From Gordonia terrae (GTDB taxonomy: Bacteria > Actinomycetota > Actinomycetes > Mycobacteriales > Mycobacteriaceae): a stretch of 64,000 nt of DNA. The position numbers and the translations under genes are program-made. The first letter of the stretch is position 1; each line of letters begins with the position of its first letter. Shown piece by piece: positions 9,386-39,816 of this stretch. Location of the stretch: assembly GCF_001698225.1 (NCBI RefSeq), contig NZ_CP016594.1:1736001-1800000 (forward strand), written 5' to 3'. The notes under the pieces were generated by a model, which worked only from the letters and a program-made list of their open reading frames with translations, searched no databases and was not told the DNA's origin.

Positions 9386-9420
9386 CCGGTGCCGGGGCGC
9401 CGTCGACGCCCCGGCACCGG
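9386..9420 (+). terminator. strong hairpin after gadB
   Basis: A perfect 14-bp inverted repeat (left arm 9386-9399, right arm 9407-9420, 7-nt loop) begins 4 bp after the gadB stop. There is no clear T tract, as is common in actinobacterial intrinsic terminators. It should separate or attenuate transcription between gadB and the downstream membrane protein gene. Confidence 0.7.
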
Positions 9421-16211: not shown

Positions 16212-16258
16212 CAGAGTGCGGGATCGGTCTCGGAAGTCGGCACAGATACCGCACTCTG
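16212..16258. repeat. 47-bp palindromic element, upstream copy (locus A)
   Basis: This imperfect palindrome has outer arms CAGAGTGCGG and CCGCACTCTG. It matches the element at 16735-16781 over its whole 47 bp, including an off-centre GGAAnnCGGCAC core that gives both the same orientation. It lies 45 nt before the start of a decayed AbiEi-type gene. It is not at a gene end, so a terminator role is unlikely. Confidence 0.8.
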
Positions 16259-16303
16259 CCGCGGACGTGGAACCTGCACGGTTCGGCGTGCGTCTACCTG
16301 TGC

Positions 16304-16730
16304 ATGGCCACTGCACCTGCCTTGCGGGCATTCGCTCTGGCGCGCGACGGCGTTGTCACCGCGGCCGAAGCCGGCGAGCACGGTCTCGTGACCACACGGC
16401 CGGCGACGACAACCGTCACCGCTTCGCGGAGTTGGCACGGTTCGCCGGTGAAGGGGACGCTCGTCGTGCGAAGAAACCTCGACGAGTCCGACATCGTGGT
16501 CGAGAAGGGCCTCACGGTGACGACCGTGCCGCTGTCCGTCCTCGAGGGTGCCATCGAAGGAAAGATCGACGTGCTCGACCGCGCCTTGCAGGACAAGAGG
16601 GTCACCGTCGATGCTCTGGTGCAGACGTATCAGCGTCGACGACGCTGCCGAGGTGCACACGAGATGGCGAAGATGCTCGCGCTCCTGGGTTCTGGTGCTC
16701 GTTCGGTCGCCGAGCGATCGCCTGATAGTC
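16304..16730 (+). pseudogene. decayed AbiEi/DUF559-type gene (paralogue of the gene at 38880)
   Basis: The reading frame from ATG 16304 aligns with the intact protein encoded at 38880-39767, but large parts are missing. Matching blocks are the start (LR..AL.RDGV.T with a GLT/GLV turn), then a jump over about 65 residues of the intact protein (the DNA-binding and WWHGL region). The match resumes with the conserved stretches (G(T/S)PV.G, VRR, and PLSVLE.AIE) and ends at SGARSVAER. Everything after that is absent, including the whole PDDEXK-like nuclease domain. The frame then runs into a palindrome at 16735. It is therefore an internally deleted and truncated relic, not a small gene. Confidence 0.8.
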
Positions 16731-16734
16731 CTCA

Positions 16735-16781
16735 CAGAGTGCGGGATTCGTACTGGAAACCGGCACGAATCCCGCACTCTG
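16735..16781. repeat. 47-bp palindromic element, downstream copy (locus A)
   Basis: This is a perfect palindrome with 17-bp arms around a 13-nt centre, starting just after the point where the relic gene loses homology. It is the better preserved of the two copies; the upstream copy carries mismatches in the inner arm. It lies between convergent reading directions (relic plus, acyl-CoA dehydrogenase minus), so it may also stop transcription. The matching upstream copy argues that it is part of a paired element. Confidence 0.8.
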
Positions 16782-16799
16782 CGGACGCGGGTCCTACAC

Positions 16800-38792: not shown

Positions 38793-38833
38793 CGGGGGCA
38801 GGTTGTGCCGGTATGCGGCATCTGATGCCCCCG
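38793..38833. repeat. palindromic element upstream of AbiEi/DUF559 gene (locus B)
   Basis: A nested palindrome: outer arms GGGGGCA (38794-38800) and TGCCCCC (38826-38832) enclose 25 nt, within which TGCCG and CGGCA form an inner stem. It lies 46 nt before the start codon at 38880 and between divergent genes, so it is not a terminator. The partner element after the gene (39772-39816) has the same outer arms and the same 25-nt interior length. Confidence 0.8.
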
Positions 38834-38879
38834 CGCCAGAAGCCGGGAACCCGTCACCCGTGCTGCGCGTCTGATCATC

Positions 38880-39767
38880 GTGCAGCTTCCCCCGGGCCTT
38901 CGGCGCCGCGCTCTCGTCCGTGACGGCGTACTGACCATGGCCGATGCGCTCGACTTCGGCCTCACGCGGTCCGCGGTCCGGCGTCGAGTCGATTGCGGGG
39001 ACTGGCTGCGGTACTCACGTGGGGTGTATTCGCTCGCCGATCATCCGGCGACGCCGGCCACCCGTGCGCGGCTGGCGGTCGCGACCGTGGGCCGCGGTGC
39101 GGCGCTGTCCGGAGCCGGAGCCGCGTGGTGGCACGGGCTGATGGACGAGCCGCCGAAGAAGTTCACGGTCACCGCGCCGCGATCGCGGCATGGCACTCCG
39201 GTCGAGGGCGTTCGGGTCCGGCGCCGCCGCCTCACGGACGCGGAGGTGGTGACCCGCAAGGAGCTGCTCGTGACAGCGTTGCCGCTGTCCGTGCTGGAAG
39301 CCGCGATCGAGAGCGACAGCGGAGTCCTCGACAACGCTCTGCTCGTTCGCAAGGTCTCGCTGCGTCAGCTACGAGTCGCCGCTGAACGTCGACGCGGTAA
39401 GGAGGACGGACCCGCGATCGCGGCCCTTGTCGACGGGGTCGAATCCGGTGCGCGCTCGGTGGCGGAGCGGCTCGCCGTCGACGCGTTGAGCGCCGGGGGC
39501 GTGAGCGGTTGGTCGTGCGGTCATCCGGCCGGCGGCTACTTCATCGACCTGGCGTTCCCGGATCGGCTGCTGGCGGTGGAGATCGACGGGATGGCATTCC
39601 ATCGCGACGCGGAGACGTTCCAGCGAGACCGCCGACGCCGAAACGACCTCATCGCATTGGGTTGGACCGTCCTCAACTTCACATGGAGTGACCTGCGGGA
39701 GCGGCCCGACGACGTCGTGGCGCGTGTCCGCCAAGCGCTGGGCCTGCAGCGCGACCGGCCGGCATGA
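38880..39767 (+). CDS. AbiEi-like DNA-binding plus DUF559 (PDDEXK/Vsr-like) endonuclease-domain protein
   Basis: This is a 295-residue two-domain protein. The N-terminal part (about 1-60) resembles the AbiEi antitoxin winged-helix domain (VRDGVLTMADALDFGLTRSAVRRRV...G.WLR...GVY). A middle region carries SGAGAAWWHGL. The C-terminal 100 residues match DUF559-type nucleases: Glu196, Asp223 in IDLAFP, Glu234-x-Asp236 in VEIDG, and the closing GWTVLNFTW. The likely metal-binding residues are intact. No AbiEii toxin partner is adjacent, so it is not an ordinary type IV toxin-antitoxin pair. It starts at GTG 38880. A truncated paralogue lies at 16304. Both loci have matched flanking palindromes. Function unknown. 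Confidence 0.85.
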   Translation: MQLPPGLRRRALVRDGVLTMADALDFGLTRSAVRRRVDCGDWLRYSRGVYSLADHPATPATRARLAVATVGRGAALSGAGAAWWHGLMDEPPKKFTVTAPRSRHGTPVEGVRVRRRRLTDAEVVTRKELLVTALPLSVLEAAIESDSGVLDNALLVRKVSLRQLRVAAERRRGKEDGPAIAALVDGVESGARSVAERLAVDALSAGGVSGWSCGHPAGGYFIDLAFPDRLLAVEIDGMAFHRDAETFQRDRRRRNDLIALGWTVLNFTWSDLRERPDDVVARVRQALGLQRDRPA

Positions 39768-39771
39768 CAAA

Positions 39772-39816
39772 TCCGGGGGCACCGTGAACCGCTGAGCGGA
39801 CCAGATTGCCCCCGGA
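39772..39816. repeat. palindromic element downstream of AbiEi/DUF559 gene (locus B)
   Basis: Perfect 10-bp outer arms TCCGGGGGCA (39772-39781) and TGCCCCCGGA (39807-39816) enclose 25 nt that contain the inner palindrome CCGCTGAGCGG. It begins 5 bp after the stop codon. It could act as a terminator between the convergent genes. The shared arm and interior length with the upstream element at 38793 also suggest one bracketing pair. Confidence 0.8.

Follow-up and report, generated by a model that had tools for sequence, protein, structure and literature searches.

To our knowledge, the dispersal of repetitive extragenic palindromes (REPs) is tied to one protein family only, the RAYT transposases. 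IS200/IS605 insertion sequences carry palindromes near both ends, and a homing gene normally interrupts its own target, thereby protecting itself. We analyzed a 64,000-nucleotide stretch of the Gordonia terrae genome (the window; G000:C1:1736001-1800000, genome size 5.70 Mb; G and L numbers are our handles for genomes and loci), in which a gene whose product joins an AbiEi-like half to a nuclease half lies between two palindromes. We consider it probable that this gene and its palindromes together make up a unit in a REP-like mobile system whose partner protein is a homing-type nuclease and not a RAYT transposase.

The likeness to RAYTs and REPs, as these are described in the parts of the literature available to us (PMC3686654, PMC8266576), lies in a gene flanked by cognate palindromes, in tens of further copies in the genome and in the association of gene with palindrome. 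An earlier note on this DNA, made from the window's sequence alone, had drawn this analogy; it is supported by the flanking palindromes of the gene family and by the many gene-free copies in the mycobacterium M. agri (G412). The family protein is, however, unrelated to RAYTs: its nuclease half has a predicted Vsr-like fold without a HUH Y1 transposase domain, and none of six family proteins matched the Y1 transposase profile (PF01797) at an E value of 1. The lack of this domain also separates the family from IS200/IS605, which it resembles in the palindromes near both ends. The palindromes differ as well: they measure about 37-53 bp, 66 of 84 pairs align better direct than inverted (by a measure biased to direct because the fragments were picked by direct alignment), and 24 M. 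agri copies, with variable flanks, carry no GTAG-type 5’ tag. A hidden RAYT was rejected as the mover, since nine of ten genomes searched have no Y1 transposase gene; the only matches in the ten (L479, L480) are both in one mycobacterial genome, G414.

The catalytic fold predicted for the nuclease half is shared with I-Bth0305I (EDxHD/Vsr-like; 3r3p), a homing endonuclease described as forming a dimer on a target almost 60 bp long (PMC3943268). The family protein differs in its AbiEi-like N-terminal half, and no intron or intein was seen. Unlike the gene of an EDxHD homing endonuclease, the family gene does not interrupt its target, and whole palindromes stand on both sides of it. The N-terminal half has the predicted fold of the AbiEi antitoxin (6y8q) of the type IV toxin-antitoxin system AbiE; such antitoxins are reported to autoregulate by binding inverted repeats (PMC7319586). 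The window gene differs from AbiE in that no AbiEii is adjacent, in its fusion to a nuclease and in the palindromes that bracket it.

We found no description of such a gene-palindrome system in the open-licence literature, a weak negative covering titles, abstracts and a few passages (including PMC2267715 and PMC3733652). Stem-loop families are reported in mycobacteria, in the passages available (PMC2267715), and the palindromes here were not compared with them. The system is real, widespread and apparently undescribed, and the window contains an open gene, flanked by worn palindromes, and a decayed unit. If this is correct, a second, unrelated protein has a REP-type architecture and the lifestyle evolved twice; many DUF559/MTES_1575 genes, now annotated merely as nucleases, would gain a function; a repeat class of mycobacterial and Gordonia genomes would be accounted for; and many protein-target pairs would become available for the study or use of palindrome-specific nucleases.

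Palindrome pairs and protein lineages

We aligned the 5’ flank of each gene with its own 3’ flank, and used flanks of different genes as the control. A non-redundant merged set, mainly from Gordonia, Williamsia and mycobacteria, was assembled with identical proteins merged and with L009, L026, L034, L068, L099 and L100 excluded beforehand. Matched pairs (score of at least 18) were found at 84 of its 111 family genes (51/63 named and 33/48 other loci), compared with 2.87% of mismatched flanks. The first set, composed of 19 loci with a motif match less two without an N-terminal anchor (L009, L018), had given 13 of 17 loci at this score, with a mismatched 99% quantile of 17.6; it had missed L004 and L026 (motif) and L034 (too short). 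In the named set, 59 of 80 loci scored at least 20 (mismatched, 2.9%). No pair was found at any of 43 other open reading frames (ORFs) of the window, the nuclease gene not being among them (maximum 12.0), or at any of 14 genes of other DUF559 subfamilies (maximum 11.5; the 5’ flank of L036 was short). The earlier note had proposed looking for palindromes beside these genes and not beside unrelated ones, and the counts agree with it for this sample, which is not genome-wide; its wider suggestion, that such pairs belong to DUF559 genes in general, failed, as they are restricted to the AbiEi-fused subfamily.

A family profile search of the class gave a match in 145 of 296 genomes at E 1e-20. In a further test, which used 49 of 50 loci, a score of 18 or above was reached by 9 of the 15 nearer loci and by 14 of the 34 distant ones. 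Our judgment is evenly balanced on a broader proposition: that a mobile system without relation to RAYTs extends across the actinobacterial class, and that its nuclease, of homing-endonuclease type and equipped with an AbiEi-derived reader, would disperse its own palindrome of ~40-53 bp, and occasionally its own gene, as an independent invention of the REP lifestyle. Carriage by a phage or plasmid was rejected: phages gave a single weak match, covering only part of the protein; four plasmid records were all <60% identical, one of them spanning most of the protein; and 40 viral-contig loci had matches confined to residues 163-295. Some units (e.g., L033 and L029) have longer or doubled palindromic ends; L033 has two hairpins on each side, perhaps through layered insertions.

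Protein identity and palindrome similarity were correlated across the 80 complete loci scoring at least 18 (rho 0.466, a value reached by 0 of 999 permutations), and palindrome likeness was almost confined to protein identities above about 65%. For example, L002 in the window's genome carries the GTTGCGTTTTGTCCCGG kind, and so do L028, L088 and L092, which occupy a different site (that of L004) in other species. The L002 protein is closest to these three (66-71%), versus 58-63% for the nine units with another palindrome at the L004 site. Each lineage of the gene carries a palindrome of its own, which tracks the protein and not the site. The self-associated pair of the earlier note is supported, and the pair is lineage-specific.

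Occupied, solo and empty sites

We compared sites in one genome per species, at about 70-97% identity. At the window site, none of 16 relatives has the gene and one of them (L044) has a single solo palindrome; among 21 further relatives, 15 have the gene, one has a remnant (L068) and five have none. Counting G000, 12 units at this site are forward and 4 are reversed; the reversed units of G052, G012 and G039 are of the TTCAGCAGTAGGTATCG kind, as is the solo palindrome of L044. The L004 site holds 8 forward and 6 reversed units, one of them partial. Inversion between a unit's own palindromes was tried as the cause and rejected, because at the two sites checked the reversed units mostly have other palindromes and more distant proteins; separate insertions are likelier. 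L097 and L098 are reversed, yet their palindrome resembles that of forward units, and inversion may account for single cases.

At the L218 site, 20 mycobacterial relatives comprise four with abutting stop codons (L315, L317, L318, L320), 12 with a 6-67-nt gap, two that lack the gene but have a solo palindrome (L331, L340), one with a full unit (L336) and one with a 1.1-kb gene-free insert (L339, G152). At the L360 site, M. agri has 53 bp between ...CATA and TCGACG, versus ...CCTA-G-TCGACG in L380 and ...CTA-A-TCGACG in L387 and L391; because the flanks join in these three, the insert is the palindrome itself. Three of eight M. agri solo sites queried had no contiguous empty site among the fetched loci. 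The earlier note had looked to empty sites whose boundaries match the palindromes, and this was borne out in part: empty sites exist and the solo copy at L360 matches, but full units at the L218 site retain about 10-15 additional nt beyond their palindromes. In Gordonia, a site that carries a solo palindrome in L135 (G052) has none in L147 (G012) and holds 1.9-2.3 kb of other sequence in G000, G047 and G045. At one intergenic site, the inverted repeat of G000 (L174; similar in L175 and L176) differs from that of G052 (L137), as if sites attract palindromes.

The mobility that the earlier note claimed for the unit is, as a reading of compared sequences, well supported by the empty, solo and full states, by the presence of both orientations and by the occurrence of like palindromes with related proteins at different sites. 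These sites also bear on a free-standing homing endonuclease, which would cut the palindrome at an empty site, whereupon break repair would copy the gene in and double the palindrome. We regard this as very improbable. The best nuclease fold match is indeed I-Bth0305I, whose long target may be set beside palindromes of about 37-53 bp; against it, the gene has a whole palindrome on either side, many solo palindromes persist in the genome that carries it, and units occupy many different sites, not one allelic site.

In the REP-like system that we favor, the protein would recognize the palindrome of its own lineage, as a dyad or a hairpin, and its nuclease half, possibly as a dimer, would cut or nick there. 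Repair or strand transfer would then put the palindrome, or palindrome-gene-palindrome, into a new intergenic site, and solo palindromes would be dispersed copies or leftovers of recombination between flanking copies. These roles are plausible for the two halves because I-Bth0305I dimerizes on a long target and AbiEi binds inverted repeats. Because intact palindromes flank the gene, we speculate that free duplex is less likely to be cut than a single strand that has folded, or DNA in some state of replication; TnpA-REP is reported to act on single-stranded REPs (PMC8266576). We infer that this protein binds the palindrome, cuts, and moves the unit.

Several observations weigh against this proposal. 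A nuclease that cut intact palindromes would also cut its own flanks and all solo copies. The pair score is below the threshold of 18 at 27 of 111 family loci, one of them the window gene with its own pair (11.0), and at 6 of the 15 nearer loci of the further test. Partial correlation gave no support for the N-terminal half as the palindrome reader (C-terminal 0.30 versus N-terminal 0.15); C-terminal identity follows the palindrome at least as well, and either half may be the one that recognizes it. No movement between strains was seen, because one genome was taken per species. No consistent target-site duplication, a DDE-type feature, surrounds the 24 M. agri palindromes, for which there was no same-species comparison. 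Some solo palindromes occur in several species and have diverged where they stand, a pattern consistent with a system that is slow or domesticated. Finally, two palindromes of the TCAGCAGTAGGTATCG kind in G000 enclose a 3.6-kb cassette that has no family gene (L128).

Dispersed palindromes

With up to one mismatch, GTTGCGTTTTGTCCCGG was found in 11 of 59 Gordonia genomes (reversed pattern, 0 hits), and TCAGCAGTAGGTATCG in 16 of 59 (reversed pattern, 4 hits in 3 genomes); both counts include copies in units. Contexts were examined for 20 chosen Gordonia regions, one of which (L133) is a unit remnant. GCGATTTCGGCGCGC occurs exactly in 17 of 19 mycobacterial genomes, and its reversed pattern in none; most of the 19 were picked for carrying a GCGATTTCGGCGCGC-kind unit, and G164 and G418 look like one genome.

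M. agri, the only genome examined this deeply, has 44 GCGATTTCGGCGCGC arms versus one family gene (E 1e-60). Of the 34 listed positions that have an exact arm, 23 fall in the 20 regions fetched, which together contain 24 palindromes. Each measures 53 bp and has 15-bp arms and an inner GCGC stem, and a mismatch at columns 19-21/33-35 is kept. One palindrome pair brackets the family gene; no family match lies in the remaining 19 regions. By crude ORF calls, 5 of the 24 palindromes lie between divergent frames. An ordinary terminator pair was rejected as a full account, given these five and the lineage sequence that the upstream copy shares.

The palindromes could more generally be passive, as terminators or old REPs, with nuclease genes, perhaps defense- or restriction-like, shuffled between them by homologous recombination and with no link between protein and palindrome. 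The L128 cassette, at which G047, G045 and G052 have a single palindrome, would fit this explanation, as would the frequent position of solo palindromes at convergent gene ends (again by crude ORF calls) and the PADLOC matches, which are to AbiEi and to the nuclease parts of defense proteins. We nevertheless think it unlikely: the palindrome lineage follows the protein lineage rather than the site, the pair is present at 84 of 111 family loci and at none of 43 other window ORFs, and there are the M. agri palindromes between divergent frames. The cassette (L128:646-4308; G000:C1:4486245-4489907) holds an ESX/EspA-like TPR protein (PF23275), and G039 (L141) has two TCAGCAGTAGGTATCG-kind palindromes 3.4 kb apart around other frames; the palindromes may bound other cargo too.

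The window's two loci

The window gene (Table 1) begins with GTG at 38880 and ends with TGA at 39765-39767, and its product matches AbiEi_4, MTES_1575 and DUF559 in Pfam. An AlphaFold2 model built on 18 sequences (predicted local distance difference test score, 90.3) has, in its nuclease half, I-Bth0305I as the best of its closest PDB folds, which include Vsr. D223 is invariant, and E234 and D236 are present in at least 90%, of 18 family proteins. The earlier note was right about the AbiEi-like/DUF559 fusion, about these three residues being intact in the window protein and about the absence of AbiEii, the neighbors being the RF3 and KAS III genes.

Table 1. Positions, strands and supporting evidence for the palindromes, genes and promoter motifs of the window
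Feature	Position	Strand	Evidence
Upstream palindrome of decayed paralogue	16212..16259	.	sequence
Promoter motif matching that of the nuclease gene, at decayed paralogue: GGAACC (16269-16274), CGTC (16291-16294)	16269..16294	+	sequence
Decayed family gene; profile match covers residues 85-197 only (16379-16717 = G000:C1:1752379-1752717)	16305..16734	+	
Downstream palindrome of decayed paralogue	16735..16782	.	sequence
Upstream palindrome, arms CGGGGGCA/TGCCCCCG, between RF3 gene and nuclease gene	38793..38833	.	sequence; gapless homology and covariation with orthologues
ECF-sigma-like promoter motif: GGAACC (38846-38851), CGTC (38868-38871), 17 nt between GGAAC and CGTC	38846..38871	+	conserved in leaders
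AbiEi-like and Vsr/I-Bth0305I-like nuclease gene, 295 aa	38880..39767	+	open reading frame, Pfam, AlphaFold model, PDB matches
Downstream palindrome, arms CCGGGGGCA/TGCCCCCGG	39773..39815	.	sequence; gapless homology and covariation with orthologues

The palindromes lie where the earlier note had placed them, 46 nt 5’ of the GTG and 5 bp 3’ of the TGA. Their 25-nt interiors, which it had called identical, are equal in length and differ in sequence. The pair alignment score is within the control range (control maximum 12.0), and taken alone the pair would not beat chance. We aligned both copies from G000, G045, G022, G002, G014, G018, G019 and G023 with the upstream copy of the G047 remnant, and these 17 sequences align gaplessly over 37 nt. 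In the alignment, 84.1% of cells pair, versus 25-49% after sliding by 1 to 3 columns. Cells changed on both sides number 24, whereas shuffles give 13.3 ± 2.6; none of 500 shuffles reached 24, a figure that is not a probability, the palindromes being few and related. Pairs with such a two-sided change number 6, no more than in shuffles (6.2). Most relatives have GCGGCA/TGCCGC as outer arms; in G000 and G045, each of the two copies has GGGGCA/TGCCCC. Because of this homology with orthologous palindromes and the compensatory changes, we accept the pair as real but worn, and recognizable through the palindromes of its orthologues.

At the decayed paralogue, where the earlier note had also described a palindrome pair, the two copies match over 48 nt with 79% identity. 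Its downstream palindrome and the upstream one of the G047 unit (L101) at the same site share 92% identity over 48 nt. Among relatives at this site (L101, L102, L104, L106), G047 has a longer, apparently frame-broken copy, G052 has unrelated sequence, and G022 and G002 have a solo palindrome of another kind.

The leaders of the two genes share what the earlier note had listed as GGAACC and GCGTCT blocks; together these form a single conserved promoter-like motif. GGAAC-N17/18-CGTY occurs in 76 of 84 leaders of pair-bearing loci, versus 0.25 in shuffles (last 100 nt 5’ of the start, spacers of 16 to 18 accepted), and presumably resembles the promoters of extracytoplasmic function (ECF) sigma factors. 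The conserved motif raises the possibility that the arrangement is regulatory only, with the upstream palindrome as an operator for autorepression by the AbiEi half, the downstream palindrome as a terminator, and solo copies as operators or terminators of other genes. The upstream palindrome does adjoin the motif, and the reported autoregulatory binding of AbiEi antitoxins to inverted repeats (PMC7319586, in the part available) is consistent with such a role. We consider this explanation improbable, since it leaves unexplained the lineage sequence shared by the downstream copy, the empty, solo and full states, the two orientations and the conserved nuclease.

An Rfam search of six loci gave no match to a known RNA, and the window gives a tRNA only. 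At the strictest hairpin setting, the sole hit in the window is a 14-bp perfect stem with a 7-nt loop at 9386-9420, which is unlike the palindromes collected here.
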